Source: a virus. From it: a DNA stretch of 64,000 nucleotides. Both the position numbers and the translations under genes were made by a program. How positions within the stretch are numbered: the stretch's first letter is position 1; each line of letters begins with the position of its first letter. A model generated the notes under the pieces. It was not told the origin of the DNA and searched no databases. It saw only the letters and a program-made list of their open reading frames with translations. The stretch lies in IMG/VR virus record IMGVR_UViG_3300033145_000692, positions 1-64,000 of that record; one strand, 5' to 3'. Shown here piece by piece: positions 14,591 to 51,205 of this stretch.

Positions 14591-14630
14591 TTAGGGTTAC
14601 TTAGGGTTACTTAGGGTTACTTAGGGTTAC
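14591..14630 (-). repeat. Four perfect 10-bp tandem copies after the reductase gene
   Basis: TTAGGGTTAC (plus strand) repeated four times without a mismatch. The first copy on the minus strand supplies the reductase stop codon TAA, and the last runs into the AAGGAG ribosome site of the next gene. The hexamer TTAGGG recalls eukaryotic telomeres, but the period here is ten and the context is a gene junction, so this is a local slippage-type duplication. Confidence 0.95.
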
Positions 14631-17600
14631 TTGACAGGACATGATCCACCTTGGCATTCAAGCGAATCAACCATATCAATCTCTCGATCATCGGTGATCT
14701 GCGTAATTGGTTTGACTACCTCCATCAGTTCCATATACTGCGTTGGTGTGATTTTCTCAAGTGGTGCCTGGCGGAATCCATGGTCCATCGCGTGCATGAA
14801 GCTACAGGTCTTCACACTCGAAGCGTAGTTGAGCGCTAACCACTCTTGTATTTGGTCAACCTCCTTGCGTTGGAAGTAGTGACTACAACTGACTGACTGG
14901 TCCGACCAGTAAGTTTGAAGGAACCTCTGTACTTCCAGTTCATCAAGTACACTTACCTTGTCCTCCGTTACAGCTTTCGGTCCATAGTCCATTGGGAACG
15001 AAACAACCATGGTGTCAAGATTGTGAGAACCATCAAGGTTCAACTCCGGCTCGATGTGGTAGTTGTGCTGTCGGCAGATTTCAATGAGTGGGTCGTTCGC
15101 TGCGAATCGTATCCGACGTATCAGGTAACGACTGAATGCGGCGTGCATCCCAGGTGTACACCCATATGGCAACAGACTGACAGTGTTGTGACTTTTGAAA
15201 GCCCCATTGTAATACCAGTGTTCATTCTCCACTTCGATATCATACGTAGATACCATAGAGTGAGGGGTAACACCTTTTACAAGACCCACATGCGGACTAT
15301 TCTTACCAGGGCGGTCAGTGGTATAGGGACCAGTAACACCTATCGCTTTGACAGAATGGCTCAGAACCCTTTCAAGACTCTCCGAGGTACTGCGAGCACA
15401 AGCTGTCAATACCCACATATTCTTTTCACTTTGAAAATTCTCCCCCTTAGTGTTATGAGAGAGTCCCATTACCAGACCTATCGCCAAACCCACCTGTTGA
15501 ACTTCACGGAGAAATTCCTCATTTGCCTGTGTGATGCAAAAAGTCCAGTAATCTGTAGACTCATAGACGCAACCATCTGAGTCAACAAGACCCGCAAAAT
15601 AAGCCAGCAAATGCTCAACTGAAGACTCTCGTACTACTCGAACAACATTTCCGCTCTTTTCCAAGTTGTTTGCAAGAAACCAGTGATAGAGCATCTTGGA
15701 AGCAAACGCTATTTCAAATGCCTCACGATTCGAGGCTGGGAGTATTTTCGCTTGCACACCAAATGCTTCTCCAATAATACTAGACACCCGTTCCAGGGTA
15801 TCCTTATGATCCTTGACAAACCTCACGCGGTATTTACCCTCTGAAAGACAACCATCACCTTGAAAGAACCCTAACAACCACGCAAGATCGGTTGTCATCT
15901 TTTTTGGTTGTTTGATACGTTTAGTATCACTTTTGGTGATAAGTTTGTCTTGGTCAATACTTGTGAAGGTTGATGCCGTCATCGAGGTATAGGACCCCTG
16001 GTTGAATTCCAAAATGTCCTCGGGTTGCAGGTGACAGGTTTTAACCCATCTCCCTACAGGTTTTAATCCTGCCATTCCATTGTATTTTCGATGTCTTTTT
16101 ACAAACCATGGATGATCAGCAGTTGAGAGGAGTCGGGTATTATATGACAAACTGATAGCATAAACCTGTTGAATGCCATTGTCATAGGTCCCTATAATCC
16201 TGTTGGATTCAGGTCCTTGCAATACTTCGTGGTCCCCTTGGAATTTACTCCACTCACCAGTGTGTCCCTCCATGAGTTCATCCAATTTGAGGATACCTCG
16301 ATTAGTGGTCGTAAGCTCAGAAGCCGGTCTACAACCTGAAGGTTTCACCGTCGTGAGCTTCACACTCGTCGGGACACCAAGCTGCTTACTATAGACCCCG
16401 TCGGCAGCCTCCAACGCACGGTAAGCTGAATCGACGATCGACTTGTTGTGCGCCCACGGAGCAGACATCCAACCACTCAGGCTGACTCCGACTCGGTAGT
16501 TTCGATGCACCACCTCTTCTGTCTTGGGGTATAGGTAATGGTAGTTGGCGATCGTCTTGGTTGCTTTGTACAACGGAATCAGAATCTTAATCCACTCATC
16601 CAGTCCAGAGATGTTGGGCAACAAGGTCTCTGCTAAGTTGCAGGACTCTCGATCTTCTAATGTGCTCTCCCCACAATTTTTGGAGTTGACCATCACCCAT
16701 CTGTGCCGTCCATAATCGTTAATACCTTCATCAAAACAGCCAAGGAAGAAATTGTGAAAATCATCAACAGTCCCGTTCCAAACGTCCTCATACCCGTCCT
16801 CAGTGATGGATACAATTCGATGATTGTGAGTTTCGGTGGCAGCACAGAGTAATTTCCATGAAGCAAATGGTGAAGATTTTCGACTTACCTCGGGGCTGAC
16901 ACCTTGATCTCGGCAAGCTTGCATCCATTCTTTCTTTTGTGGTTTCATACCCAGTTCCATTTTCAACTTGGTGAAGACATCAAGTTGTTGCCGACGGATA
17001 ACTTTTTGCTTCGAGTCAATAATCTTCCTGTTGGTTTCGCGAGCTTTTGATGTATCTCGTAGAGTATTGGCACACGAGAATCCACAACACGCATTCTCCC
17101 GTCTTCGGTGGTGAATCCAGAAAGATTTCCCACAGGCTTCACACTTTTTCACCACATCCACCGTGTTGTCTTTGATGCGTGCTTCATACCCAGAAGCTAA
17201 CATGTCTTGGTATACACGTATAGTCCGTGGGTCACCATCAGACACCACACCTGCAAGATTCCCACAAAGCATGGAGAATGCGAAATAACCATCAGCGATG
17301 TTACTTCGATAACCACTTCCCTGGAAATTCAACTCAGGGTGGGAAGATCTTTTCCATTCTTTAACTGAGAACCGTCGCCCAAGTTTTTTACAAAATGCAA
17401 CACCGAGAGCAATGATTTCATCATTGTTGAACCCTGAGAAATTAGGGTTACTTCCCCCCTTACTGTGTTGCGAAAGATGTTCAGTGGCGTCTCGAACACT
17501 CAGATTCGATAAGTCATTGTTCAACCTGTCACCATCTTTGTGGTGAACGTGTTTCCCAGTGAGATCAGGTTCACCATGAAACCTTGCAATTTCCTGGTGT

Positions 17601-19021
17601 TCATAGAACCTTCCATAACCTCCGAATGACATGTACGTATACAAGTCACCTCGGGAATTTCCATCACAATCTTCAGGGACATACCTGGTCATGATACGAA
17701 GACCAGTACCAATATCAAGTTGATCAACTCTTCGCATGACGCCATCACTACAGAGAAATTTGTGGTTCCCTGTTACTCGAAGTGATTGGTTATTGTCGAA
17801 AGTTACCTTATAGACTTTCTGTTGGTGCCCTGTAACACGTGGGTTGCGCATCATCCGAACAGTAACCTCATCGGAGTCACTGAGGCAATAGACAGGGGTA
17901 TCTCCATCCAGCTTGTTGATGGCAATTGCCCCCCTACCATCAGCAACAGCTACAAGAGTATCACCAGTCACGCACGGGTTGCAACCTACAACGCGAAAGT
18001 CAGGTCGGTAGTCCAACCCGTCAGCCAAACGACCCAACCTCTGACAATTCTCCAGGTTGAGCAGACCATAGCACTCCCCGTTCGCCCGGTAAGGTTCCCA
18101 GTACGCTTCGGGTAAGTCTTGAATCCTATGACAAGCGATGGTGTTGTTCGACATCCGCCTCCAGTTGGGCACCGTGTGTTTGTTCCAGTTCTTCGCCTGG
18201 ATGAAATCCAAATCCTGGTGATGTCCAATGGCGATTTGACTGGACCGTCGAACATTACCCGACACGACAATCGTACCAATAATGTTCATGATGTCCATAC
18301 AGTCGATCGGTCGAAGTTTTTCCCCCACCCTCTTATGGAGAATTTCAACGATCTGCATAATACCTTTCACCAGGGGTTCGGAACCACTGGCAATACCACC
18401 AAAACTATGGATGACTTTCCCGGCGGATCGAACACACTGTGTTGAGAATGCCAATGGCTTCCCGTCAATGAAGAATGCCTGTAGTACACGTCGCAACAGT
18501 TCGATCCATCCTTCACGGTTGTCTGGGACGATAAAGTCACAGTCGGGCGTCTCGGCGCGGACAACGGGAGGATCATATTTGACGCGAGGTAACTCATAGA
18601 CGTACTCTGGGAGGATGTTGAATCCAACACCTCCACCTAGCATCAACTCATCAAAAGCGAAGCAGAAAGATTCCAGATCGTTACAGACAACCAGCCAACA
18701 GTTCTGAAGGCTGTCAGCGCCCAGACGTTCAACGGTGTCAGTACCAAGTTGCCATATTGCACGCCCGCTCGGCAGTCCCTTCAGGTGAAACATGTTGTCA
18801 TAGAGGCTGGTCAGTTCGGAGTCTTTGAATAGTCCGCCGATTTCCACTAGACCGTTGCAAACTCTGGCACAGGTCTCATGCCACTCTTCCGTTCTCCCTA
18901 AGTCAGTGATCATCCTGGCGTAGGTTCGTTTGTATGTGACATACCCTACAGGCCCCCATGGCGGCACCATGTCTTCATACTGTTTGAGGAACGTCCTCGG
19001 TAGCCCTATCGAATAACTCAT
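14627..19021 (-). CDS. nrdJ: Class II (B12-dependent) ribonucleotide reductase with two inteins
   Basis: 1464 codons; removing both inteins leaves about 648 residues. LPSGRAIWQLGT (residues ~83-94), NCWLVV (~107), CNLAETLLPN (~794, the finger-loop cysteine) and TVKPSGT (split by intein 2) follow monomeric adenosylcobalamin-dependent ribonucleotide triphosphate reductases, and the C-terminus ends ECQGGSCPVK, the CxxxxC pair that re-reduces the active site. The enzyme makes deoxynucleotides from ribonucleotides using a B12-derived thiyl radical and needs neither oxygen nor a second subunit. Inteins occupy residues 350-782 (after NP, before CGE) and 897-1279 (inside PSG/T), both active-site motifs. 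It overlaps the upstream gene by four bases. Confidence 0.9.
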   Translation of the reverse strand: MSYSIGLPRTFLKQYEDMVPPWGPVGYVTYKRTYARMITDLGRTEEWHETCARVCNGLVEIGGLFKDSELTSLYDNMFHLKGLPSGRAIWQLGTDTVERLGADSLQNCWLVVCNDLESFCFAFDELMLGGGVGFNILPEYVYELPRVKYDPPVVRAETPDCDFIVPDNREGWIELLRRVLQAFFIDGKPLAFSTQCVRSAGKVIHSFGGIASGSEPLVKGIMQIVEILHKRVGEKLRPIDCMDIMNIIGTIVVSGNVRRSSQIAIGHHQDLDFIQAKNWNKHTVPNWRRMSNNTIACHRIQDLPEAYWEPYRANGECYGLLNLENCQRLGRLADGLDYRPDFRVVGCNPCVTGDTLVAVADGRGAIAINKLDGDTPVYCLSDSDEVTVRMMRNPRVTGHQQKVYKVTFDNNQSLRVTGNHKFLCSDGVMRRVDQLDIGTGLRIMTRYVPEDCDGNSRGDLYTYMSFGGYGRFYEHQEIARFHGEPDLTGKHVHHKDGDRLNNDLSNLSVRDATEHLSQHSKGGSNPNFSGFNNDEIIALGVAFCKKLGRRFSVKEWKRSSHPELNFQGSGYRSNIADGYFAFSMLCGNLAGVVSDGDPRTIRVYQDMLASGYEARIKDNTVDVVKKCEACGKSFWIHHRRRENACCGFSCANTLRDTSKARETNRKIIDSKQKVIRRQQLDVFTKLKMELGMKPQKKEWMQACRDQGVSPEVSRKSSPFASWKLLCAATETHNHRIVSITEDGYEDVWNGTVDDFHNFFLGCFDEGINDYGRHRWVMVNSKNCGESTLEDRESCNLAETLLPNISGLDEWIKILIPLYKATKTIANYHYLYPKTEEVVHRNYRVGVSLSGWMSAPWAHNKSIVDSAYRALEAADGVYSKQLGVPTSVKLTTVKPSGCRPASELTTTNRGILKLDELMEGHTGEWSKFQGDHEVLQGPESNRIIGTYDNGIQQVYAISLSYNTRLLSTADHPWFVKRHRKYNGMAGLKPVGRWVKTCHLQPEDILEFNQGSYTSMTASTFTSIDQDKLITKSDTKRIKQPKKMTTDLAWLLGFFQGDGCLSEGKYRVRFVKDHKDTLERVSSIIGEAFGVQAKILPASNREAFEIAFASKMLYHWFLANNLEKSGNVVRVVRESSVEHLLAYFAGLVDSDGCVYESTDYWTFCITQANEEFLREVQQVGLAIGLVMGLSHNTKGENFQSEKNMWVLTACARSTSESLERVLSHSVKAIGVTGPYTTDRPGKNSPHVGLVKGVTPHSMVSTYDIEVENEHWYYNGAFKSHNTVSLLPYGCTPGMHAAFSRYLIRRIRFAANDPLIEICRQHNYHIEPELNLDGSHNLDTMVVSFPMDYGPKAVTEDKVSVLDELEVQRFLQTYWSDQSVSCSHYFQRKEVDQIQEWLALNYASSVKTCSFMHAMDHGFRQAPLEKITPTQYMELMEVVKPITQITDDREIDMVDSLECQGGSCPVK
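15185..16333 (-). other. Intein 2 of the ribonucleotide reductase (LAGLIDADG type)
   Basis: About 383 residues (897-1279), starting with Cys in CRPASELTTTNRGI and ending KSHN before Thr of the host sequence TVSLLPYG. Two dodecapeptide motifs, WLLGFFQGDG and YFAGLVDSDG, mark a LAGLIDADG homing endonuclease. STADHPWF is the block B motif and VSTYDIEVENEHWYYNGAF is block F. All residues for splicing (Cys1, terminal His-Asn, Thr+1) are present, so it looks active. Confidence 0.9.
16676..17974 (-). other. Intein 1 of the ribonucleotide reductase (HNH type)
   Basis: About 433 residues (350-782), starting CVTGDTLVAVADG and ending VMVNSKN before CGESTLE. Block B is VTGNHKFL. The insert carries an HNH endonuclease (HVHHKDGDRLNNDLSNLSV) and a four-cysteine finger (CEAC then CCGFSC). 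Cys1, terminal Asn and Cys+1 are present. The residue before the terminal Asn is Lys and not His, a known but less common variant. Confidence 0.85.
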
Positions 19022-19389
19022 TTAGACTCCTTGAGTAGTTTGTTGACTGACAATGTCTTCAGAAAGTTCGTTAGCTGAGAGTTTGCCATCTGAGCATTGT
19101 CGAACAGAGCTTGCAATACTTCAGCGTCGGGTACTTTGCCGTCATAAGGTACATCACGAAACTGGTTTGGCCAGAACATGGTACGATCAATCAAGTTGAT
19201 GTCAATTGGATGATCGCCGTCAGGATCTGCCTGACATTTGAGTTCAACTAAATGGTTTATAATGGAGTAGAGATCATTGACATCTTGTGGAGTGATAGCC
19301 GCCCAGCCACCATCCGACTCTCTCCAACCATCCAACCACTTGGTTATCATCTTGGAGACAAATTTCCTCGAAGGACTGTATACTGTCAT
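19018..19389 (-). CDS. Hypothetical protein, 123 aa
   Basis: Not recognised. Mostly helical, with PQDVNDLYSIINHLVELKC and VLQALFDNAQMANSQLTNFL. It overlaps the cysteine desulfurase before it and the reductase after it by four bases each, so the three are translated from one message. A helper role for the reductase is possible but nothing in the sequence shows it. Confidence 0.65.
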   Translation of the reverse strand: MTVYSPSRKFVSKMITKWLDGWRESDGGWAAITPQDVNDLYSIINHLVELKCQADPDGDHPIDINLIDRTMFWPNQFRDVPYDGKVPDAEVLQALFDNAQMANSQLTNFLKTLSVNKLLKESK

Positions 19390-20564
19390 TTGGCATTCTC
19401 CCTGAACTCTCTCTGGATGCGTTCAACGTGGAAACACAGGTCGTCAATGTCTGACCAGTCATTCAAGAAGTTGAAGCTGGCGCGGACACTTCCACTAGGA
19501 CAATTGAGAAATCTGTGAAGAGGTCTTGCACAATGAGTGCCACCTCTCACAGAAATACCCACGTCGGCTAAGCAAGCAGCCACATCATGCGAATGGGCAT
19601 CCTCCACAACGAAACTGATGACGGGAGACCTACCATTGATACCTCCACCGAGAATTCTCACGTTGATGTCTGAAAGCTTCCTGTAGGCATAATCAGTTAT
19701 CCTCTCCTCACGAATTTTTCTCAGGTGACGTTCGGTAGGTTCACATTGGATATATTCCACTGCTGCCCCCAGACCGATTGCTTGGATGATCGGTGGCGTA
19801 CCTGATTCAAACATCCTTGCTTGGTCCACCCACTGAAACATTGGACGGATGTCTTGGAGAACCACATCAAGACCCGGCATCCCACCACCGAAAGACGAAG
19901 GTTGAATCTGGTCGAGCATTGTTTCCTTGATGTATAGGACTCCAATCCCAGTTGGTCCAAACATCTTGTGACCGCTGAACGCCATGAAATCGACGAACAT
20001 ATCCTCGACGTTATGGGGGTAGTGAGCGATACTCTGCGCCGCATCAGCCAACACCATAGCACCTACCTTATGAGCAGCCATGGTTAGTTTGGAGATATCA
20101 TTCCTGGTACCAAGGACATTAGAGACAACGGGCAATGCAACGATCTTGGTACGTGCATTGAGAAGTTCCAAGTAGGCTCTCTCGTCGATGTTACCGAAGT
20201 TGTCAATTGGGACCACCTTCAAGGTCGCACCCGTGCGATTGGCAAGGGCGATCCAAGGAACAAGGTTGGAATGGTGATCCATGACGGTCACCATGATCTC
20301 ATCGCCCTTCCCGAGTATCCATTTCAGACCACGGGCTACGATATTGATTGCCTCGGTAGCTCCACTGGTGAAGACAATCTCCTTCCTATCAGCACCAATA
20401 AAATTTGCCACTTTGAATCTGGCGTTCTCGAACGCTTTGGTAGTAGCCTCAGCTTCGTCATGGAAACTTCGGTGGACATTGCTGTATGTATCACAGGCAT
20501 CATCCATCACTTTCCTAACAGATTTGGCGCAAGGTGTGCTGGCGGCGTTATCGAGATAGATCAT
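19386..20564 (-). CDS. Cysteine desulfurase, SufS/NifS-like class V aminotransferase
   Basis: 392 residues, full length for the family. YLDNAAST opens the fold; TSGATEAIN (~66-74) and DHHSN (~96-100) bind PLP; DAAQS (~174) holds the ring nitrogen; FSGHKMFGPTG contains the Schiff-base lysine (K200); RGGTHCARPLH contains the persulfide cysteine (C345). The group II style SGHK and short active-site loop point to SufS/CsdA. The enzyme removes sulfur from cysteine as a persulfide for Fe-S clusters, tRNA thiolation or DNA phosphorothioation. No partner for any of these was found in the window, so the recipient is unknown. Full-length copies are uncommon in phages. Confidence 0.9.
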   Translation of the reverse strand: MIYLDNAASTPCAKSVRKVMDDACDTYSNVHRSFHDEAEATTKAFENARFKVANFIGADRKEIVFTSGATEAINIVARGLKWILGKGDEIMVTVMDHHSNLVPWIALANRTGATLKVVPIDNFGNIDERAYLELLNARTKIVALPVVSNVLGTRNDISKLTMAAHKVGAMVLADAAQSIAHYPHNVEDMFVDFMAFSGHKMFGPTGIGVLYIKETMLDQIQPSSFGGGMPGLDVVLQDIRPMFQWVDQARMFESGTPPIIQAIGLGAAVEYIQCEPTERHLRKIREERITDYAYRKLSDINVRILGGGINGRSPVISFVVEDAHSHDVAACLADVGISVRGGTHCARPLHRFLNCPSGSVRASFNFLNDWSDIDDLCFHVERIQREFRENAK

Positions 20565-21473: not shown

Positions 21474-22511
21474 TTATCCCTTGAAAAATGGGGTTCTGGT
21501 TGTCTCACTGTACCAATTCTCTTCCTTTGACCCATCAGACGCTAGCCCTGTGGCGATATCATTTAAGACTGCGACTCGCTCATCAGACTCTTCCCGTGGT
21601 AGGTCAGTGAAGACATGACCACTCGTTATGGCTTCCCAACAGTTCTTCACACGCGCTTCGAGTTCAAACTGGTAGGAGGACTTCACACGTGAACGGTGGT
21701 TGGCAACACGTAGCAGTGGGTACTCACCCTTGAGCACATCGCCGGTCGGTTTTGACACCAGTTCGTCGATACATACGATTGTCTCTTCTGAGCCAACCGT
21801 GTCGCCGAGCAGCCACCCATAGAGCGTACACTGAGAAGCGTAACTCTCGGAACAACTCTCCATGTAATCCCTGTTGATGATCATACCACGGAAGTCATGT
21901 TCCATGTACATTTTGTGGGACTTCATATGGGACGCACTCGTCTTGAGTTTCCCAGACTTATTCGGAATGGGGTCATAGGCATCACGACAAAGCATGTAGC
22001 CCTTCGTTGGGCTGGCGGCGTACTTCGAGCAGAAGGATTTTACTTTCCAATCCAAGATCACACTGATGCGACCTTCCCCGAGATCAAGTACGAAACGGCA
22101 ATCTGGCTTCCCAAGGAAAGGGGCACCACCAACTGTTCCTGTCAGCTTGCACTCGAACCTTGGGTCTTCAACCGATTGCTTGAGAAGTGCCAACAGTTCG
22201 TCATAGCTGCCGGTTTTCTTGTACTGCTCAAAACAGAAGAGACCGGCTTTCCATGCGAAGTCTCGGTTATGTTCTTCAACCTGGTCTTCAAAAAGTGTGG
22301 TCAATTCGTACACTGGATCAACGCCCTTGCCGAATAGCTCTTCGTGTAATGACGACTTTACATAGGCATCAAAGGCAGAGCCTACGCACATCGGACCTGT
22401 TTGAAGAAGCTTAGCCGGACGGCTGTCCGCTAGGTACTTCAAGACAAACTCTTCGGTGTCCGTCTCGAACAAGTTCTGTGACGAGTAGGACAGATAAGTT
22501 GGGATTCTCAA
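21474..22511 (-). CDS. PD-(D/E)XK nuclease, Cas4/RecB-like
   Basis: 345 residues. A VGSAFDAYVKSSL helix near residue 43 resembles the N-terminal histidine/acidic helix of RecB-type nucleases; the catalytic core is LGKPDCRFVLDLG followed by ISVILDWKVKS near residues 133-158, giving PD...DxK. A later helix (YASQCTLYGWLLG) supplies the usual Q-x-x-x-Y element. Proteins of this size and layout in phages are exonucleases that process DNA ends for recombination or packaging. I see no C-terminal iron-sulfur cysteine cluster. Confidence 0.75.
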   Translation of the reverse strand: MRIPTYLSYSSQNLFETDTEEFVLKYLADSRPAKLLQTGPMCVGSAFDAYVKSSLHEELFGKGVDPVYELTTLFEDQVEEHNRDFAWKAGLFCFEQYKKTGSYDELLALLKQSVEDPRFECKLTGTVGGAPFLGKPDCRFVLDLGEGRISVILDWKVKSFCSKYAASPTKGYMLCRDAYDPIPNKSGKLKTSASHMKSHKMYMEHDFRGMIINRDYMESCSESYASQCTLYGWLLGDTVGSEETIVCIDELVSKPTGDVLKGEYPLLRVANHRSRVKSSYQFELEARVKNCWEAITSGHVFTDLPREESDERVAVLNDIATGLASDGSKEENWYSETTRTPFFKG

Positions 22512-27670: not shown

Positions 27671-28089
27671 CAAAAATCCTTCACGAAAGAGCCAAAGTTC
27701 TCAGTGATTAACGCTTCCTTGATTTCGTCAGTGGTAACGTTGATGCTGCCATAGTACTCACCAGGGTATTCGTTTCGATCAGCGATGAGTTCAAGAAAAT
27801 GCTCCCAATCGTAGGTGATATATTTCTGATAGCAGTCATCCTCCCCAGCAACCAATTCCCCAATAATACCAAAGTCACCACTTCGGATTGCTACCTTTGA
27901 ATGCTCCTTGATGCAGTGTCTCGACCAGACATCAAAACGGTCTTTGAGAGGAAACTGTTTGTCTATAACAAACTTCCTGAAGATCGTCTGGAGATTAGCC
28001 TCCAGACGATCGTACTCTTCCCCCAGGTTGTCAAGCTTGTTCCCTAACAACCTGACGGCGTTACTTAGCGCCCAAGCTTTCCTATTCAT
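27670..28089 (-). CDS. Hypothetical protein, 139 aa
   Basis: Helical N-terminal half (NAVRLLGNKLDNLGEEYDRL, QTIFRKFVIDKQF) and mixed C-terminal half (YYGSINVTTDEIKEALI). Not recognised. It overlaps the DNA ligase gene by four bases and the SEC-C gene by one. Confidence 0.65.
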   Translation of the reverse strand: MNRKAWALSNAVRLLGNKLDNLGEEYDRLEANLQTIFRKFVIDKQFPLKDRFDVWSRHCIKEHSKVAIRSGDFGIIGELVAGEDDCYQKYITYDWEHFLELIADRNEYPGEYYGSINVTTDEIKEALITENFGSFVKDF

Positions 28090-29210
28090 TCAACGTCTCG
28101 CTTTCGCATGTAGGATGCCTCTTTTGGAACTCCATCATCGGACAGTTCGCGGAACTTGAATGTCACCTGCTGACCTACCTGGAAGTGCCTGCCCTGCGTT
28201 CCGCTTGGCATGTCTTCACCCGGGTGCTCATTAGCATAGTGTCGATCACCCTCGGTGGCAAACTCACGTTCGATATCGGTGAGACCAGATAGTTCCAATC
28301 GCTTCCCCTTGTACTCGGTAATGAGTGCCCCAATCCGACCCAGGTGTTTCGATCCCTTGTTCGTCTGACGCCCGCAGGTGAATCCTGTGACGACTCCCTC
28401 ATCATCGAGAGTCGGCTTGAACTTGAGTAGGTCGTTTACACGCTTCGGCGTCCACTTTCCGTTGGCAGCCCGGATGATGACACCTTCACCACCCTTGGCT
28501 AACACACTGTTCGTGAAGTCGGTGAGGGCACGGCGGGCTATCACCTCCTTGGTCGGGAGTCGTATCTGCTTATGCAGGAAGACCACATCAGGGTCATAGT
28601 CCTTGAGACGGTGGAGGTAGCCCAATTCCTCCTTGAAGGTCGCAGACTCATGGATGTCCCACAGGACACTTTCGTCGCCATACGCAAGATTCTTGTAGGC
28701 TTCATCGTTGTACCACTTCAGGAAGCTCTTGGTGACATCACAGTAAAAGTTTGAGTTCTTGATCAACCCAGGCTGAAGAAATCTGACTGGACTCGGTGCC
28801 GAGTAGATCGCATACGTGATCTGGTCAAACCTGGGATCGGGCGAGTCACCGGCGCAAATTGAGCGACACGTCTGGAAGTTCCCACGTCCTGCCCAGAGTT
28901 CCCCATCAAGGATGAAATTGGGGAGCTTGTCGAGGTACCAGTCGGGAGCCATAATGGGGTTGCCATACCTGGACCACAGTCCCGTGGCTACCGGCTTCAC
29001 CTTCGGCTTGGCTTCCAGCGTCTTCGGGTTGATGACACTCGCCCAGGGGACCTCCCTGGTGTCCATCCCGCGAGTCACGCCTCCGTCCCAGATGCACCGG
29101 GTGCCATCTAGCTTCTCACTGACGTACTTGCCAGCCACGGTCTGTTTGTCATTGTCTGGTTTGAAAACCTTGGCAAGTTGCAAGAATTCACGTCTGATGA
29201 CTTTTGGCAT
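28086..29210 (-). CDS. ATP-dependent DNA ligase
   Basis: 374 residues. Motif I is VSEKLDGTRCIWDG (Lys ~33), motif III LDGELWAGRG, motif IV GEGVIIRA, motif V LLKFKP, followed by a C-terminal OB fold ending VTFKFRELSDDGVPKEASY. This is the minimal two-domain layout of T7-like phage DNA ligases, which adenylate the lysine with ATP and seal nicks in duplex DNA. It would join Okazaki fragments made with the PolA-type polymerase and the primase. The promoter-like element at 29251-29281 lies 41 bases upstream. Confidence 0.9.
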   Translation of the reverse strand: MPKVIRREFLQLAKVFKPDNDKQTVAGKYVSEKLDGTRCIWDGGVTRGMDTREVPWASVINPKTLEAKPKVKPVATGLWSRYGNPIMAPDWYLDKLPNFILDGELWAGRGNFQTCRSICAGDSPDPRFDQITYAIYSAPSPVRFLQPGLIKNSNFYCDVTKSFLKWYNDEAYKNLAYGDESVLWDIHESATFKEELGYLHRLKDYDPDVVFLHKQIRLPTKEVIARRALTDFTNSVLAKGGEGVIIRAANGKWTPKRVNDLLKFKPTLDDEGVVTGFTCGRQTNKGSKHLGRIGALITEYKGKRLELSGLTDIEREFATEGDRHYANEHPGEDMPSGTQGRHFQVGQQVTFKFRELSDDGVPKEASYMRKRDVE

Positions 29211-31171: not shown

Positions 31172-31334
31172 TGTCAAACCCCTGCTTGGATAGAATTTCA
31201 TTGAGTTCTTTGTCCCTTCTGGTATCAGATGTGAATGAGTCAAGAGCACATTGTATAGCCCTCCTCAATTCAGGGACAGTAGAGCCATAGGCTGCTGCTA
31301 ACCGTTTCAACTCACTCACTGAAGGCTTCAGCAT
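31083..31334 (-). CDS. Hypothetical protein, 83 aa, overlapping the peptidase start
   Basis: From ATG at 31334 (MLKPSVSELKRLAAAYGSTV) the protein is helical and ends with NDETDETASEAKQM and a short tail. The last 89 bases lie inside the peptidase gene in another frame. The repeat cagtttcat (plus strand, 31151-31168) gives DETDET here and MKLMKL in the peptidase. Not recognised. It overlaps the nuclease gene by 23 bases. Confidence 0.55.
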   Translation of the reverse strand: MLKPSVSELKRLAAAYGSTVPELRRAIQCALDSFTSDTRRDKELNEILSKQGFDNDETDETASEAKQMVLRNNLVGNGTRHPS

Positions 31335-31725
31335 CAAGTTCGTCGAGCATTGTGTCGATGTCATTTTGAGTAGGTACCCTCCAAGAAGATTTCCAATAGT
31401 CTTTCCAGTTGGGCGGTGCAAAGAGTTTGTCGTATTCAAATTGGGTTGCAGCCGTCAGAATCCAGATGCCAATCCCTTTGTTATCCCAATGTGGCCACTT
31501 AATGCGTTGAGCCTTCGTAAAGCTGTACTTCTTCGGATGCTTCACATCAACCCAACGCTCGCCGATACCACTTTTGAACAGGTAGAGGTCAGGGATACCC
31601 CTCTGGAAAGCATTCCCGTGCATCACCTCGACGACCCACCCATGGGTCTCAAGGAACTCCTTCAAGTCCTTCTGGATGTACCACTCCGCGCCATGTGTTG
31701 CTTTCTTGATGATGTTACCCATCAC
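31312..31725 (-). CDS. VRR-NUC-type endonuclease, PD-(D/E)XK superfamily
   Basis: 137 residues. RGIPDLYLFKSG then ERWVDVKHPKKYSFTKAQ carries the PD...DxK catalytic triad with a following Q-containing helix, and an N-terminal E in GAEWYIQKDLKEFL. The layout matches small VRR-NUC/Holliday-resolvase-like phage nucleases that cut branched or flapped DNA. It begins ATGATG; either ATG may be used. It could resolve recombination intermediates before packaging. Confidence 0.75.
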   Translation of the reverse strand: MMGNIIKKATHGAEWYIQKDLKEFLETHGWVVEVMHGNAFQRGIPDLYLFKSGIGERWVDVKHPKKYSFTKAQRIKWPHWDNKGIGIWILTAATQFEYDKLFAPPNWKDYWKSSWRVPTQNDIDTMLDELDAEAFSE

Positions 31726-31775: not shown

Positions 31776-32102
31776 CTAAACAACGAACTTACCGTCAGCC
31801 CAAATGAGCTTGCGAACGTCATGTGGAATTTCAGTACTGGTGATAATCACCATGATGCGAACCTTGTCAACCATTAGCAGACTCTCTGCCCGGCGTATAG
31901 CCCGCGACAATGCCCGTTTCCGAGCTTGCCTACCATTGGTGATCACTTGCTCCTCAACTTGACCCTTCCACCAAAGGTGCCCGACAGTCATCGTTTGAGT
32001 GAGGTGTTTATAGGATGGTTTCGACCAGTACCAACACTCCCACATCTCTTTCTTGGGGTCCCAGATCTCTACGTTGTACTGAAGCACTTCCCAGTCTTTC
32101 AT
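31776..32102 (-). CDS. Hypothetical protein, 108 aa
   Basis: Start at 32102 (MKDWEVLQYNVEIWDPKKEM) overlaps the upstream stop (TGATG). Tryptophan-rich N-terminal half and a basic helix ARKRALSRAIRRAESLLMV, then strands VRIMVIITST and KLIWADGKFVV. Not recognised. It is the last gene after the three sulfotransferase-like genes. Confidence 0.6.
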   Translation of the reverse strand: MKDWEVLQYNVEIWDPKKEMWECWYWSKPSYKHLTQTMTVGHLWWKGQVEEQVITNGRQARKRALSRAIRRAESLLMVDKVRIMVIITSTEIPHDVRKLIWADGKFVV

Positions 32103-32632
32103 CACGTACTCCTTGGGATTGTGTAACCGTGGTTGCAAATGGTGTCGCTGTACCTATCAACAACGAGGTCGATTAACTCGGGTGTGTAGTAGTCGGCAAA
32201 GTCTCGACCTGCCCGCTTCTCAGATACATTCCTCCATGGAATCTCAGCGGGTGGAAACCCGATCTCCACCATCAGTTGGTTGAAATCCTCCTGGAGGTTT
32301 TCGTAACGAAGAGTATGCGTGCAGAGGTGTTGCCCAAAGAACAGCCCGCTCTGCATGTAGTGGTTAGGCTCGGCTACCCTCTGTCTCAACCATGTAGGAA
32401 AATGGTAGTCATGCTTCGTCTTGAACATCTCAAGGTAGTACCATGAAACAAACAAATCAAACGGGTCCCTCACTGTTGAGAAGACGATCCAACCCGCTGG
32501 TAATTCCTTGTACTGATGGTGGCTCATCTCAGCCTCAAAGCCACGTCTATTGACAAGCACCTTGCTGGTTGCCTGTGAAGCCGTCCGTGGGTGAGCGATA
32601 AACGCCACCTCTTTTTCACCATGGATGTACAT
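32102..32632 (-). CDS. Sulfotransferase-like protein 1 of a tandem trio
   Basis: 176 residues. FIAHPRTASQATSKVL is the 5'-phosphosulfate loop of PAPS-dependent sulfotransferases (compare P-K/R-T-A-S/G-x-T/S), and TVRDPFDLFVSWYY is the 3'-phosphate motif RxPxDxxxSxY/W. A later RYENLQEDF is shared by all three genes. In the family the enzyme moves sulfate from PAPS to a hydroxyl or amine of sugar, peptide or small molecule. The protein is short (usual 250-300 residues) and its acceptor is unknown. It begins inside the stop of gene 2 (TAATG). Confidence 0.75.
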   Translation of the reverse strand: MYIHGEKEVAFIAHPRTASQATSKVLVNRRGFEAEMSHHQYKELPAGWIVFSTVRDPFDLFVSWYYLEMFKTKHDYHFPTWLRQRVAEPNHYMQSGLFFGQHLCTHTLRYENLQEDFNQLMVEIGFPPAEIPWRNVSEKRAGRDFADYYTPELIDLVVDRYSDTICNHGYTIPRST

Positions 32633-33147
32633 TACAGTATTTCGTACCCGTTGTCTAAGATGTCTCTCTCGAACAGACTCACTACATGTGCAGTTAGTTC
32701 AGGAGTGTAACAGTCGGCGAAGTTGCGACCTTCGCGCCTCTCGGAAACATTAGTTCGTTTGATCTCTGTTTGTGGCAATCCGACCTTCTCCGTGAACTTG
32801 TCAAAATCCTCTTGTAGATTCTCGAAATGGAGAACGTCAGTCGAGAACTTCAAACCAAAGAACAAGTCGTTGATATAACTGTACGGGCTGGGTCGCTGTA
32901 TGACATGGGCAGCCCATTTCTCGAACGTCACTCCGAGTTTCTCAGGCTGTGCATAGTACCAGGACACAAACAAATCGAACGGGTTCCGAATCACGGAGAA
33001 AGTTGTCTTCCGACACCATATCTCCTTGAACTGGTGATGTGAACCTATCTTCTCGAATCCCATATCAAGAAGGGTGTAACTCATAGCAAGTGATGCCGTC
33101 TTTGGGTGGGCGATGAACGCCACATTCTTTTCTTCGTGAATGTACAT
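32632..33147 (-). CDS. Sulfotransferase-like protein 2 of a tandem trio
   Basis: 171 residues. FIAHPKTASLAMSYTL is the closest of the three to the canonical 5'-phosphosulfate loop (PKTAS), and VIRNPFDLFVSWYYA is the 3'-phosphate motif. It shares HHQFKEI, FENLQEDF and ...NVSERREGR with its neighbours. No signal peptide or membrane segment. Linked by one-base overlaps on both sides to the other two copies. Confidence 0.75.
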   Translation of the reverse strand: MYIHEEKNVAFIAHPKTASLAMSYTLLDMGFEKIGSHHQFKEIWCRKTTFSVIRNPFDLFVSWYYAQPEKLGVTFEKWAAHVIQRPSPYSYINDLFFGLKFSTDVLHFENLQEDFDKFTEKVGLPQTEIKRTNVSERREGRNFADCYTPELTAHVVSLFERDILDNGYEIL

Positions 33148-33665
33148 TATGAACTCCTTGTCCAGTAATTGTGCTGTTCGATTTCGTCTCCGAAGAAACG
33201 TCCAACCATGTCGAGTGTGGCATCATTGTAGATACCCATAAAGTCCCGACCCATACGCCACTCTGAAACATTCATTCGTTTGATCTTTGTCTGTGGGAGC
33301 CCAACCTTTTTCATCAACTGGTCGAATTCCTCTTGGAGATTCTCGTAATGAAGGATGTCAGTACAGAGGTGTTGCCCAAAGAACAGTCCATGTGAAATGT
33401 AGTGAGGTGGATTGTTGAGAAAAATTCTCAACCAGTATTCAAAAGACCAATGTTCCTCACGTCTCCTGAAGTAGTACCACGACACCAACATGTCAAATGG
33501 ATTCCGAACCACCGAGAAAGTTGTCTCAAGACAAGAGGACTCCCTGAACTGGTGGTGTGACCCATCCTGTACAAAGCCACTCCCAAGGAGTGTCGCAGCC
33601 ATCGCAACTGACGCCGTTCTCGGGTGGGCTATAAAAGCCACCTTCTTTTCTCCATGGATGTACAT
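33147..33665 (-). CDS. Sulfotransferase-like protein 3 of a tandem trio
   Basis: 172 residues from ATG at 33665, which shares its first base with the last base of the polymerase stop (TAATG). FIAHPRTASVAMAATL and VVRNPFDMLVSWYYF are the two cofactor motifs; the DILHYENLQEEF segment matches the others. All three genes open with MYIHxEKxVAFIAHP, which shows recent tandem duplication with later divergence of the C-terminal thirds, where the acceptor would bind. Confidence 0.75.
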   Translation of the reverse strand: MYIHGEKKVAFIAHPRTASVAMAATLLGSGFVQDGSHHQFRESSCLETTFSVVRNPFDMLVSWYYFRRREEHWSFEYWLRIFLNNPPHYISHGLFFGQHLCTDILHYENLQEEFDQLMKKVGLPQTKIKRMNVSEWRMGRDFMGIYNDATLDMVGRFFGDEIEQHNYWTRSS

Positions 33666-36184
33666 TATTCCATCTCCGGGGCACACATCTTGACAGTAAC
33701 AGAGCCGCCCTTCTTCTCAGCCCAGTTTGCCTGTGCTTCATTCCATGTCATCCCGATCAATGGAACCTGCGGGCGATAATGTTCCACCACCTCACGTACC
33801 TTTTCAGTCACTTGTGAGACATACTCAGGATCAGTAACGCACATGACCTCGTCATGGACGTTGAGAGGGGCAACTTTCAACTCGGACACACCAACTGGTT
33901 GAAGGTCCCAGATTGCACGTTGGGCATGTTTGGTGATCTGACCACCAGGAGATTGAATCTCGTGGTTGGCGGCGGCACGCATGTTCGCTTGCTGCAACCC
34001 AAAGGCAGCCCCATACAATGCACTGGAGACCGCTCCACCCGCCGTCTGAACCCTGTCACGACGCCAAACCTTCACCGGATGGTTTTTCCAGCCCTTGGGC
34101 AAGGCATTCGCCATCTTAAACATCTCGTGGCAGATTTGATTCTCCAATGTGAAGAACCTCTTGAAGCCAAGGAAGGATTCAACACAATCCTTAGGCTGCC
34201 GCCACACCACCTGTGACCCAACGCCTCCGGGTTGTCGCATAGAGCAGAAGTCATCAAATGTCTTCTCACGTGCTTTCCCCACGCCGGGGTACCGCTTGTC
34301 GAATTCCTCGAAAGCCCCTTTGGCATTCTCTTCCTTGACACCTAGGTTTCTCACCAGGGTCTCCCAGGTACCACCATAGATCATGGCGAACACACCGGAC
34401 TTCCCCTTCAAGTACATATCGTTCTCAGTACCTGAACTGGCTAGGACCTCACCATAGGTGTGTCCTGGGAAGATCGCCATGCCGAACAGACCATGAATCT
34501 TCTGGCGAACCAAACCCTTATCGTCACACTCATCACATTCCCCCATTCTATCTTCACCAACCTTTGTCCCGTTGCAGAATGGACACTCGATCTTTTTGAC
34601 CAGGTCTCCCCGCAACGCTGGATCATTGTAGACCGCGTCTGCCAGTGTCACCTCGAATGAGTCAAAGTCACCACCACAGAGGATCGTGTCTCCCCAGTTA
34701 AGTGGGAAGCAGCGGCGAACCGCTTTGGTCGCTTTGATCCCCTGTGCATTGAGCCCTGAGGTACCAGCCATTCGAGAGGACTTGGTACCCACAACAACGA
34801 AGTCTGCATGGAACCTGCCAGCTACCAGCAGCTTGTCGTAGAGTTCAACCTCCTTGGCAGCGATCTTGATGTCAAGGATTTCTTTGGCGCGGTACGCAGC
34901 CGGATGGTTGCCCATCTCCTCTTCACAACGGTCCCATGACGCCAGCATCTGTCCAACCCCATTGCAGCGGGAGCAGCCCTTACCTGAACACTTCTCACAC
35001 TCTTCATCTTCCTCAATGTGCCATTCACGTATGGAGGTCAGGTTGGCTTTCTTCGTGGACCATCCCGTGGTGTCTTCGATCGACATAATCTCGATCTCAT
35101 CCATCACCTCTTCCATGTAGATGCGTACGGAAACTGGTTTGTTCGTATTGATTGGGCTGTTGTCAACCTTAGCTTGGGCAGTTTCACGGAGACCTATCAT
35201 ACCCTGTTTATCAATCTCGAAACCGTGCCATCTCACCACGGGTACCATGGTTGCTAAAATGGAATCGTCATCACCTGGTGGTGGGCACTTGAAGTGCTTG
35301 TACAACGCGCGTGTGTACACGATATCATCCTTGGCATACTCACGGGCGTCAGCGTTGTTTTCCCAATGGTCGATGAAGAGTTTGATCTGGGCTGGCCAGG
35401 TATGACCAACAAGCTTATTCTCTTCCTTCTTTGGGTCCCACTCCCAGACTTCCCAATTCTTCTCAGGTGTGGAAAGAGCCCTCGCGAAAGGCGCATAGCC
35501 AAGCTCCTTCGGATACCAAGCTTTGGGAGGCTCCACGTCTTCATAATGGAACTTCGGCATGAAACCCATGGCGTGTTCGGCGAGGAACTTCAGACCGCCC
35601 GCAGGGGCGAACCTTAAGACAACGTCCTTGAACTCGTCATCAAACACACCCTCATGCTCCCGGTCCACTACGGACCATTTGGGGGCTTCTGGGTCGACTT
35701 TCTTGGCAAAGTAGATTCCATCTAACTCGACCCGCTTCTCCAGTTCTTCACTCAGCGCATACGCCAACGCAGTCGGAACCTTCCGAATGTTGATATTCTT
35801 ACGAGCCATCAAGCTTTGGTATTCACCCTTCCGAGAGACCAACATCAGGTCGATAGCACTGGCGAACTTGATGGCAGGACCATCTCTGGCTTCCATCTCG
35901 CGATCAGCGATCTCTTCAATGTGGTACTTGGGTGTCCAGTGGTTGGGGCAGAGAGCCCAGATGGTGTACAGTTTCGCCAACTGGAAAACATCGAACGTCA
36001 GATTAAAACCAACGATACAATGTTCGAGCCAACTCTCGATCAGGTTAAGAGTCTTCCAGATAGGTTCGGACCAGATGTCGTACATGTTGATAGGTCCGTC
36101 GTCCAATGCAAACTGGATCAGCACTGGCATAGAGTATAGTCCTACAGTCTCAGTATCCACGAACAATTTAGAAGGTTCAGACAT
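33665..36184 (-). CDS. Family A DNA polymerase with zinc-knuckle insertions
   Basis: 839 residues. A 3'-5' exonuclease domain comes first: FVDTET (D10, E12), FNLTFD (60-65) and YAKDDIVYT (283-291). Polymerase motif A is GGDFDSFEVTLAD (504-516), motif B KSGVFAMIYGG (595-605), motif C NVHDEV (775-780). This is the main replicative polymerase candidate. Two cysteine-rich inserts are unusual: CEKCSGKGCSRC (397-407), and CPFCNGT...CDEC (534-553) directly after motif A, both with the CxxCxG spacing of DnaJ-type zinc centres. No 5'-3' exonuclease domain is present. GGAAG precedes the ATG; a 15-bp triple repeat lies 50 bases upstream. Confidence 0.9.
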   Translation of the reverse strand: MSEPSKLFVDTETVGLYSMPVLIQFALDDGPINMYDIWSEPIWKTLNLIESWLEHCIVGFNLTFDVFQLAKLYTIWALCPNHWTPKYHIEEIADREMEARDGPAIKFASAIDLMLVSRKGEYQSLMARKNINIRKVPTALAYALSEELEKRVELDGIYFAKKVDPEAPKWSVVDREHEGVFDDEFKDVVLRFAPAGGLKFLAEHAMGFMPKFHYEDVEPPKAWYPKELGYAPFARALSTPEKNWEVWEWDPKKEENKLVGHTWPAQIKLFIDHWENNADAREYAKDDIVYTRALYKHFKCPPPGDDDSILATMVPVVRWHGFEIDKQGMIGLRETAQAKVDNSPINTNKPVSVRIYMEEVMDEIEIMSIEDTTGWSTKKANLTSIREWHIEEDEECEKCSGKGCSRCNGVGQMLASWDRCEEEMGNHPAAYRAKEILDIKIAAKEVELYDKLLVAGRFHADFVVVGTKSSRMAGTSGLNAQGIKATKAVRRCFPLNWGDTILCGGDFDSFEVTLADAVYNDPALRGDLVKKIECPFCNGTKVGEDRMGECDECDDKGLVRQKIHGLFGMAIFPGHTYGEVLASSGTENDMYLKGKSGVFAMIYGGTWETLVRNLGVKEENAKGAFEEFDKRYPGVGKAREKTFDDFCSMRQPGGVGSQVVWRQPKDCVESFLGFKRFFTLENQICHEMFKMANALPKGWKNHPVKVWRRDRVQTAGGAVSSALYGAAFGLQQANMRAAANHEIQSPGGQITKHAQRAIWDLQPVGVSELKVAPLNVHDEVMCVTDPEYVSQVTEKVREVVEHYRPQVPLIGMTWNEAQANWAEKKGGSVTVKMCAPEME

Positions 36185-36622: not shown

Positions 36623-36943
36623 TTAGAACACGTCGTAAGACCAACTCGAATCACTAGCTTTGATATTCGCTGACAAGAGTGGTCTGGTGATCACCGATTG
36701 ACCATTGTCGAGTCGAATCCTTATGGAATCATACTGACCAAATTCTCCCTCGATCCGTCCCAAGCTGCCAGTTTCAATGAGAGGGTCACCGGTGTCGATC
36801 TCCACCCCCGCCATTATTTGGTTTTGAACAATAAACTGGTACATGAACTGCTCGCTCTCAACCATCAGGATTGTGAACGGATCTAGTTTACTGATCTGTA
36901 TCTTCCCACCGGAAGGGACTCTCGCCGCTGCTTCTGAATTCAT
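36623..36943 (-). CDS. Hypothetical protein, about 106 aa
   Basis: Strand-rich (LDPFTILMVESEQFMYQFIV, then LGRIEGEFGQYDSIRIRLDN). The start is uncertain: ATG at 36943 overlaps the ParB-like gene by 56 bases, while ATG at 36865 (MVESEQF) would avoid overlap but remove a strand. Not recognised. Confidence 0.55.
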   Translation of the reverse strand: MNSEAAARVPSGGKIQISKLDPFTILMVESEQFMYQFIVQNQIMAGVEIDTGDPLIETGSLGRIEGEFGQYDSIRIRLDNGQSVITRPLLSANIKASDSSWSYDVF

Positions 36944-37718
36944 ATTCTGGTGCATGTTTCTTGATATCCTTTTTGATCTCAGCATCACTCAGGTAACCTG
37001 CTGCCCATGCCATCAGACGAGGTGGGAGCCCATTGATACCAGCGTTCAACATCACCGCTGCCATCTTACTCAACTGCGCTTTGGTTTTCTTATACCGAAA
37101 CTTTCTGGTGACAGGTACCCCACGGCGGGTCTTTTTTCCAGCCTTCTTCTCCTTGAACTTGATGATCTTATCAGCGGCGGCAACTTGCTTGTCTTCTGGT
37201 AGCTGACAGATCGCTTCGATATTCACTGCCGACAACAAGCCAAGTGCTGCCTTTATCTGCACCTTCTCAGGAAGCTTCAATAGACGAAGACGGATATGAA
37301 CCCATCTGGTTGGTCTCTTCAACTCCTTTGAAGCTGAACGAAGTGGTACCCCCTCTGGATAGAGTGCCTCGACTGCCTTTGCTTCCTCAAGCATGTTGAG
37401 GTCTTTACGCTCCAGATTCTCAGTGAGGTTGAGCAGTCTCGCCTGGTGCTCATCCAAACCTTTGAAGACAATCGCTGGAATAGTTTCCCACCTCAACAAG
37501 GACTCTACCGCTTTGAATCGCCGGTGCCCAGCCAACAATCTGAATCGCCCTTCCCACGGTTGGACGGCTATGGGGAACTGCAAACCGATCTCTTTGATTG
37601 AGTCTGCCAGTTCAATAATTGACTGAATCGTGAAAGCACCTCGACAGTTGAAACGCTCATCATATAGGATATCCTCAAGAGGAATCTCATAGGCATCATA
37701 CTGTTCAAGGCGCTTCAT
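36888..37718 (-). CDS. ParB-like protein 1
   Basis: 276 residues. LEDILYDERFNCRG opens a ParB/Sulfiredoxin-type domain; IKEIGLQFPIAVQP, LLAGHRRFKAVESL (ParB box II) and NLTENLERKDLN follow, then a KorB-like helical region with PTRWVHIRLRLLKL as a helix-turn-helix. ParB proteins bind CTP and a centromere-like DNA site; in phages they may act in partition, as regulators or as nucleases. No ParA-like ATPase lies next to it, so plasmid-style partition is not supported. A GTG four codons upstream is an alternative start. Confidence 0.8.
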   Translation of the reverse strand: MKRLEQYDAYEIPLEDILYDERFNCRGAFTIQSIIELADSIKEIGLQFPIAVQPWEGRFRLLAGHRRFKAVESLLRWETIPAIVFKGLDEHQARLLNLTENLERKDLNMLEEAKAVEALYPEGVPLRSASKELKRPTRWVHIRLRLLKLPEKVQIKAALGLLSAVNIEAICQLPEDKQVAAADKIIKFKEKKAGKKTRRGVPVTRKFRYKKTKAQLSKMAAVMLNAGINGLPPRLMAWAAGYLSDAEIKKDIKKHAPEYEFRSSGESPFRWEDTDQ

Positions 37719-37720
37719 GT

Positions 37721-38344
37721 CTACGTCCACATATACTGTCTCACGGCAGCCAGACGTTGGAGCATCTCATCAGACTGATCCTCCATATTCTGTTCCAACT
37801 CACTGGCTTCCTTTGTCAACGCGCGGTACTTGTCTTCCTGTCCATCTGTTTCAAAATGGAAGACCATCTGTCGGAGATTATTTTGAGGAGGATCAAGTTC
37901 CCTATGGTCGATCAAAGGTGAACACTCGCGGATGAGTTTCCAGATATTGTTGGTGGCTTCCTGGTACTCTTTCTGGTAGGTGATGTTCCACCAGTCCCAG
38001 ATTTCCTTCATCTCATCCATGACATACTTGCCACCAATCTTCTTGGGACCTTCCTCACCAAACCAGAGGACATGTCCAGGTGAGCATTCATTCTCAATGA
38101 ACTGCCCAAGAATCTCCATTGACATGTGCAGCAGAAGTTCCCGGCGATCACACCAAGAATGACAAAGCGTTCGTGGCTTGACCGTGGAGTATCTGTTCCA
38201 ACAGAAATTCTTTACCCACTGCCATATCGGACCAAGTCTGTAATCGTATGGAATCCGATAGTACACATCCATGACCTTGTCTTCTAAGGTCTCAGTCATC
38301 TGTCTAACCTTGGTCTTAATCACGTCAATCTCCAAAAAAATCAT
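37721..38344 (-). CDS. Hypothetical protein, about 207 aa
   Basis: An aromatic protein (YYRIPYDYRLGPIWQWVKNF, then EIWDWWNITYQKEYQEATN) with a helical C-terminus (EASELEQNMEDQSDEMLQRL). Similar aromatic proteins of unknown function are common in large phages. Its N-terminus carries a 20-bp duplication (MEIDMIFLEIDVI), so the true start may be ATG at 38344, or an internal ATG further in (MTETLEDK). Not recognised. Confidence 0.65.
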   Translation of the reverse strand: MIFLEIDVIKTKVRQMTETLEDKVMDVYYRIPYDYRLGPIWQWVKNFCWNRYSTVKPRTLCHSWCDRRELLLHMSMEILGQFIENECSPGHVLWFGEEGPKKIGGKYVMDEMKEIWDWWNITYQKEYQEATNNIWKLIRECSPLIDHRELDPPQNNLRQMVFHFETDGQEDKYRALTKEASELEQNMEDQSDEMLQRLAAVRQYMWT

Positions 38345-46722: not shown

Positions 46723-47604
46723 TCAATCTCCTTTCACCCACCGTTTGCGGGCTTTCTTACGGGCGGCATCTTCCTGTTTCTTCTGACTCTCGGGGTCAAG
46801 ATGAAGAACCCATTCCAATGCAGCTTTCCAACCTTCCATGGCGTTACTGTAATCACCTATGGTCAATAGGAGAGGTGCTTCAACACCTTTTTCAAACTCT
46901 TCCCTGACATCCTTCAATGACCTCAAGTATGGTTGGACTTGAAAATCCCTCGTGAAGAAATCCTCAAGTTTCCCCTGCTTCACTGCCTCTTTGAATTGCT
47001 TGACTACACCTGCCGCTAAGACTTTGAACTCCATCTCACCCATCAGCTTCGCTTCATCAATGAAATTGACCCTCAACCTGGGAGGTATCTTCGATAACAT
47101 GTAGGCGTTACCCAGGTTAATCTCACCACGGTCGACTGCTCTCTGTGTTGATGTGTCAAGTCTGAGGAGTCCGAGTTGTTGACTTACCCAACCTGGTTTC
47201 TTGTTGACCAAGCTAGCCAATTCTATCAGTGTGATGTCAGGTCTGACCTTCTGAATCCGCCTGATCTGATTGGCGAATTCAATTGGTTTGGTTTCTGGTC
47301 GGATGGCATTTGCTTGAATCTGTAACGCAAGTACATCGTCATCCGACACATGGTGTTTGATGATACAGGGGACAGATGGTAGTCCGACCTCCCTGGCACA
47401 TGTTGTCCGCCACAGCCCATCAATGACCTCGAAATGATCCGACTGCCGTTGACTTGGTCTGACTGATATCGAGTTGAGAAACCCTATCTCTTTGATGGAC
47501 TCAAACAGTTCAAGGTATTCCACTGATTCAGTTGCGACCGGTCTGAGCAGCACCTGTGGATCAACAAGCTGATCGGTAGGTATTTCATGGAACTGGTCAT
47601 TCAT
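46723..47604 (-). CDS. ParB-like protein 2
   Basis: 293 residues. LFESIKEIGFLNSISVRPS, FEVIDGLWRTTCAREVGLP (in place of GxRR) and ALQIQANAIRPETKPIEFAN follow the ParB domain; ITLIELASLVNKKPGWVSQQ is a KorB-type helix-turn-helix. Box II is changed from GHRR to DGLWR, so CTPase activity is doubtful. It lies directly beside the inverted-repeat region at 47632-47949, which it might bind. No ParA is nearby. Confidence 0.8.
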   Translation of the reverse strand: MNDQFHEIPTDQLVDPQVLLRPVATESVEYLELFESIKEIGFLNSISVRPSQRQSDHFEVIDGLWRTTCAREVGLPSVPCIIKHHVSDDDVLALQIQANAIRPETKPIEFANQIRRIQKVRPDITLIELASLVNKKPGWVSQQLGLLRLDTSTQRAVDRGEINLGNAYMLSKIPPRLRVNFIDEAKLMGEMEFKVLAAGVVKQFKEAVKQGKLEDFFTRDFQVQPYLRSLKDVREEFEKGVEAPLLLTIGDYSNAMEGWKAALEWVLHLDPESQKKQEDAARKKARKRWVKGD

Positions 47605-50725: not shown

Positions 50726-51205
50726 ATGAGTATGAAGTACGCCGAAGGCGATATCAACAGTGACGCAAAAGGTTCTGGTGCCCGCGCCAACCAAGGGAAG
50801 ATCGACATGACTCTGGTGCCAATAATGTTGCTCGGGGGAGTCACCCGTGTGTTCATGGGTGGCAAATTGAAGTACGCCGAATTCAACTGGGCTAAAGGGA
50901 TGGCTTGGGGTACAGCGATGGCTTGCACATTGCGGCACCTATTCAAGTGGTGGTTCCTTCGTGAGGAAATCGACCCGGAGAGTGGTGAACACCATCTCGA
51001 CCATGTCCTCGCCAATGTCTTCATGATGAAGCATTACACCAAGGCATACCCTGAGGGTGACAACCGCCCGCCCGAGTCTGCAATGTTCGGGGTGTGGATG
51101 GATGACTTCTGTCAAACCTTCGATGAGGAAGCCTACCTGGACCGGAACCCTGATATCAAGAAGGCTGTTGAACTCAAAAGAGCGGGAGACAGGGATGGCT
51201 CTTAA
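50726..51205 (+). CDS. dATP/dGTP diphosphohydrolase-like protein (MazZ/DUF5664 type)
   Basis: 159 residues from 50726, two bases after the primase-helicase stop. GGVTRVFMGGKLKYAEFNWA (residues ~33-52), then LRHLFKWW and PESGEHHLDHVLANVFMM fit the all-alpha pyrophosphohydrolases that include phage MazZ, with the metal-binding glutamate, histidine and aspartate on two helices. In phages with 2-aminoadenine DNA, MazZ removes dATP and dGTP; no PurZ was seen here, so a general dNTP clean-up role is the safer reading. Confidence 0.75.
   Translation: MSMKYAEGDINSDAKGSGARANQGKIDMTLVPIMLLGGVTRVFMGGKLKYAEFNWAKGMAWGTAMACTLRHLFKWWFLREEIDPESGEHHLDHVLANVFMMKHYTKAYPEGDNRPPESAMFGVWMDDFCQTFDEEAYLDRNPDIKKAVELKRAGDRDGS

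Follow-up and report, generated by a model that had tools for sequence, protein, structure and literature searches.

What would a bacterial virus do with three tandem sulfotransferase-like genes that directly follow its DNA polymerase gene? The question arises from a 64,000-base window, bases 1-64000 of the 100,907-base (101-kb) IMG/VR virus record IMGVR_UViG_3300033145_000692, which is an uncultivated phage. The answer that we favor, and hold to be reasonably probable, is that the trio encodes small soluble PAPS-dependent sulfotransferases that use host PAPS to modify host-derived cytoplasmic acceptors during the replication phase. Phage sulfotransferases, tandem ones included, are already known and are common in viral contigs; the replication-module setting is unusual and, together with the triplication, is the point of interest here. 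The genes of this setting, in the direction of transcription, are listed below.

33665..36184 (-), family-A DNA polymerase (DNA_pol_A, 1.4e-13), directly upstream of the trio and joined to copy 3 by a TAATG overlap
33147..33665 (-), sulfotransferase copy 3, 172 aa (PHROG 3347, 8.7e-9), first of the three to be transcribed, with an overlap onto the stop codon of the polymerase gene
32632..33147 (-), sulfotransferase copy 2, 171 aa (PHROG 3347, 3.1e-10), key residues present
32102..32632 (-), sulfotransferase copy 1, 176 aa (PHROG 3347, 2.9e-11), AF2 pLDDT 94.1
31312..31725 (-), nuclease-like gene, 137 aa (PHROG 93 endonuclease, 0.0034), downstream of the trio in the replication module
28086..29210 (-), ATP-dependent DNA ligase (PHROG 114, 1.8e-33), replication module, syntenic

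All three sulfotransferase ORFs are complete, and TAATG stop/start overlaps link the polymerase to copy 3, copy 3 to copy 2, and copy 2 to copy 1. A preliminary description of this DNA had reported the three genes in tandem, with coordinates that prove exact. It placed the start of copy 3 at the ATG at 33665, which is most likely the correct start rather than the GTG upstream at 33686. The nuclease-like gene, a sigma-factor-like protein, a nucleotidase, and the DNA ligase lie 3' of the trio. No fourth sulfotransferase copy was found in the 100,907-base record.

The three ORFs are sulfotransferase-superfamily proteins. PHROG 3347 matches each of them significantly, at the E values listed. The comparison with the Pfam Sulfotransfer families, which had been suggested as a check, gave matches below the gathering score only (14-20 bits for Sulfotransfer_1/2 against a cut-off of 22; 9.8e-4 for copy 2 with Sulfotransfer_2). 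The curated cut-off is a detection threshold that contains no structural criterion, and the Pfam seeds of this superfamily capture divergent members poorly (PMC11625862). A profile built from an alignment of 97 relatives matches the PDB sulfotransferases SULT7A1 (1.6e-5), SULT2A8, HS2ST, and HS6ST. The galactose-3-O-sulfotransferase family, PF06990, had no match to the trio at E<=1 in the Pfam search.

The PAPS 5'-loop and 3'-phosphate motifs are present in each copy exactly as first described: HPRTAS, HPKTAS, and HPRTAS for the former and VRDPFDLFVSWYY, IRNPFDLFVSWYY, and VRNPFDMLVSWYY for the latter. The features of the superfamily are the PSB lysine or arginine, the PB arginine, the PB serine, and a histidine or glutamate as catalytic base (PMC11625862). 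In copy 3 numbering, the 5'-PSB residue at position 16 is R, K, and R in the trio and K or R in 97/97 aligned sequences. The 3'-PB Arg54 is likewise found in all 97, the PB-helix Ser62 in 94, and His37 in 93, and all three copies carry each of these residues. His37, which aligns by profile with the 'TH' of SULT7A1, is the candidate catalytic base and would act as such in the trio.

The PAPS-binding alpha/beta fold is present in the AlphaFold (AF2) models predicted for copies 1 and 3, the latter with a pLDDT of 90.7. SULT-type structures are the best Foldseek matches of both models, at a significant E value for copy 3 (SULT1A3, 7.9e-5) and marginal ones for copy 1 (0.005-0.02). The TM-scores to PDB entries are mostly 0.4-0.6; moderate values of this kind might be expected when a small core is compared with larger enzymes. 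Foldseek also matches glycopeptide sulfotransferases and phage sulfotransferases, and a BFVD search returns annotated phage and giant-virus sulfotransferases with query-normalised TM values of up to 0.74. A fold without a PAPS pocket, or loss of the catalytic base from every copy, had been named beforehand as evidence against the assignment; the models resemble SULT-type sulfotransferases, and the candidate His37 is kept throughout. Incidental similarity was considered separately and is ruled out by the profile, the fold, and the residues.

The copies share 49-53% identity with one another (BLASTP, E below 1e-47). In amino acid sequence, the first ~64 residues are 59-70% identical and the remainder 41-46%. 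The earlier phrase 'nearly identical starts, divergent ends' is thus apt in relative terms, but the starts are not near-identical and are alike in protein more than in DNA (60-73% nucleotide identity). Between whole genes, dN is 0.41-0.48 and dS is ~2 or saturated. The saturation of dS in genes whose proteins are conserved indicates that the trio is old and has been maintained under long purifying selection. Recent duplication and gene conversion of the 5' ends are both ruled out, as synonymous sites in the N-terminal part are saturated or nearly so. Divergence is greater in the C-terminal, acceptor-side parts than in the PAPS-binding part; this suggests that the copies differ in their acceptors, and the earlier proposal of several acceptors is plausible.

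The phage belongs to a group without cultured relatives. In a search for a cultured relative or host, tblastn with the polymerase, a conserved 345-aa protein, the capsid protein, and the sulfotransferase returned nothing or remote matches, and a search of genome contigs found distant bacterial homologues and nothing nearer. The 345-aa protein (21474-22511, -) is without a Pfam, PHROG, or phage-collection match; its ORF retrieved 55 viral contigs of the group at 33-69% identity, and it is a good marker for this uncultivated group. As for structural genes, an ORF at L083:11229-12686 (record 74728-76185, -) can be aligned with major capsid proteins of Streptomyces phages, but in two separate pieces, as though its product contained an insertion. 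A 929-aa protein without a PHROG match (54698-57487, -) is encoded near a tail-spike-like gene (58491-61091).

The two nearest kin each carry exactly one sulfotransferase gene, directly behind the polymerase. These are G001 (IMG/VR 3300033153_004977, 26.7 kb), which is syntenic and has a 75% identical polymerase, and G002 (IMG/VR 3300028840_005768, 106 kb), in which the polymerase is 69% identical. Their single genes occupy the same place as the trio and are 37-47% identical to its copies, with 35-40% for some pairs; that of G001 is closest to copy 3 (47%). The nuclease-like gene is syntenic in both, at 74% identity in G001 and 64% in G002. The polymerase at 33665-36184 contains cysteine-rich zinc-ribbon-like inserts (CEKCSGKGCSRCNG; CPFCN...CDECDDKG), which are partly conserved in G001. 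Several related HNH-type endonuclease genes occur at L084:14084-16650 (+) and at 51057-51707 (+) of the window, and genes related to them are found immediately upstream of the polymerase in G001.

Fifty group members, one of the two nearest kin included, were searched for the polymerase and the sulfotransferase. The polymerase was found in 49 and a sulfotransferase match in 11, two of which are less clearly of the same sort (G044 is weak, and G045 resembles the ordinary marine type); many group records are fragments, in which a missing sulfotransferase gene is not proof of absence. Most of the genes are located within the replication module or close to it, away from recognised structural genes. 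In G039 the gene follows the ligase, in G029 and G040 two tandem copies each are located between an exonuclease and ParB, and in others it is found elsewhere near these replication genes. The closeness of sulfotransferase and polymerase across the group has a combined p of 6e-5 with G000, G001, and G024 excluded, a post hoc value that leans on G002. These positions and this distribution mark the gene as accessory and as a repeated occupant of the replication module. The present phage encodes two different ParB-like proteins (36888-37730, -, and 46723-47604, -).

The trio is a lineage-specific expansion. A tree of the trio with 79 viral loci fetched by sulfotransferase similarity places the trio and the G001 gene in a separate clade on a long branch (SH-aLRT 100). 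When group members are included in the tree, G002, G039, and G036 are placed close to this clade. The three copies then group together weakly (63/81), and the AU test does not reject the alternative in which copy 3 pairs with G001 (p 0.32).

The record has no member of the APS kinase, ATP-sulfurylase, or PAPS reductase families, all of which were detected in control genomes. The PAPS-synthesis genes that the preliminary description proposed to look for elsewhere in the genome were thus not found in the record, and the phage would depend on PAPS made by the host. Inspected by eye, the trio shows neither a signal peptide nor a membrane segment, which points to a cytosolic acceptor.

Other metabolic genes of the phage are recorded here in their own right. 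A SufS/CsdA-like cysteine desulfurase is encoded at 19386-20564 (-) (SufS model 1.7e-114, below its cut-off; Aminotran_5 1.3e-113), and a NifU_N scaffold-like protein of the same phage at G000 90489-90842 (+), near a radical SAM gene (91378-92397). The two are possibly a phage-borne Fe-S or sulfur-transfer pair. An adenosylcobalamin-dependent ribonucleotide reductase ORF of 1464 aa (14627-19021, -) is interrupted by one or more inteins with HNH endonuclease domains. A thymidylate-synthase-family protein (10002-10892, -) has the methanogen-type model TIGR03283 as its nearest match (1.4e-30, below cut-off) and may be a methylase or a hydroxymethylase.

From the gene overlaps, the residues, and the distribution in the group, we infer an activity, a timing, and an acceptor for the trio. 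The copies, which would be duplications of one gene at this site, would be translationally coupled to one another and to the phage DNA polymerase and, because of this coupling, would probably be made in the replication phase. With the conserved histidine as base, they would transfer the sulfonyl group of host PAPS to a hydroxyl (or amino) function on acceptors in the host cytoplasm. The acceptors would most likely be host-derived, for example a small metabolite or a precursor of an envelope glycan or glycolipid, and would be altered during takeover. The sporadic occurrence of the gene in the group and its location apart from structural genes favor an acceptor of host origin. Homologues are present in 11/50 members, for the most part within or close to the replication module, a pattern that suits an accessory gene directed at the host better than a core replication factor.

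A narrower proposal is that the trio specifically sulfates precursors of host surface polysaccharide or LPS and thereby blocks superinfection or masks receptors, a role already suggested for viral sulfotransferases that are linked to glycans. LPS sulfotransferases are known from bacteria, LpsS among them (PMC12445080), and the genes around the sulfotransferases in the 79 viral loci include many for glycosyltransferases, epimerases, NeuB, UDP-galactopyranose mutase, and FkbM methyltransferases. However, no glycosyltransferase or nucleotide-sugar gene was detected at E<=1e-3 among the scanned ORFs of the 101-kb record; these contain no epimerase, NeuB, UDP-galactopyranose mutase, or FkbM methyltransferase, and no glycosyltransferase family 2 (GT2) gene was found in the record. 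The gene also lies mostly in or near the replication module in other group members. Host glycans are possible acceptors, in a record without a detected sugar gene, and the specific surface role is rather unlikely. Sulfation of a virion protein or fibre, on tyrosine or glycan, was raised as a general possibility by the preliminary description and could be accommodated by the tail-spike-like genes of the record; it is poorly supported, since the coupling of the trio to the polymerase and the location of the gene apart from recognised structural genes, here and in the group members examined, speak against it, and we consider it quite improbable.

The direct adjacency of sulfotransferase and polymerase in three genomes raises the prospect that the trio acts on nucleotides or DNA, for example by forming an ester on a hydroxymethyl pyrimidine, either protectively or to yield an activated intermediate for DNA hypermodification. 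The thymidylate-synthase-family protein and the P-loop kinase, GNAT, and radical SAM genes of the record would suit such chemistry, but the thymidylate synthase homologue may be ordinary, and most group members are without the sulfotransferase gene. To our knowledge, there is no described precedent for sulfotransferases acting on phage nucleotides or DNA, and we give this proposal very little weight; if true, it would add a new type of chemistry to phage biology, for DNA modification or for activation. Catalytically dead relatives that bind only PAP or PAPS might be suspected from the high divergence from characterised enzymes, yet the catalytic positions are all kept in the three copies and in nearly all relatives, which makes inactivity slightly less probable still.

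The view that phage sulfotransferases are rarely described, with which this locus was first presented, is not supported. Adjacent copies, at least two and up to five, occur in 33 of the 79 loci, which are partly redundant, and a PHROG family exists. Sulfotransferases are reported as phage auxiliary genes of unclear function in glacier viruses (PMC8290583), in an underground estuary, with nucleotide or protein modification suspected (PMC10829341), and in OM43 phages, where the acceptors are explicitly stated to be unknown (PMC10580990). A phrase search of the literature outside subscription papers found no biochemical characterisation of phage sulfotransferases. In the present group the sulfotransferase is detached from glycan gene clusters and tied instead to the replication module; the common view that such phage enzymes serve to decorate glycans may therefore not apply everywhere. 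Searches for acceptors are made feasible by the small size and divergence of the three copies and by the single-copy relatives, which can serve as references.

Among known systems, PHROG 3347 ('Galactose-3-O-sulfotransferase') resembles all copies through a significant profile match over most of the protein, whereas the substrate in its name is without any support for the trio. The cytosolic SULTs (PF00685) and the glycopeptide sulfotransferases Teg12 and StaL share the core fold, the PAPS loops, and the histidine aligned with the SULT 'TH' base; in contrast to the 171-176 residues of the trio, they comprise ~220-300 and are 10-17% identical to it. The gene for gp5.1 of Roseophage SIO1 was checked for a place beside the polymerase and is not adjacent. 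SIO1 gp5.1 and the sulfotransferases of P-SSM7, ACG-2014f, RSL1, and other viral contigs belong to the same superfamily, are similarly small, and are often in tandem. These viral enzymes are often found with glycan genes, and their tandem neighbours often come from different clades, whereas the trio and the G001 gene form one.
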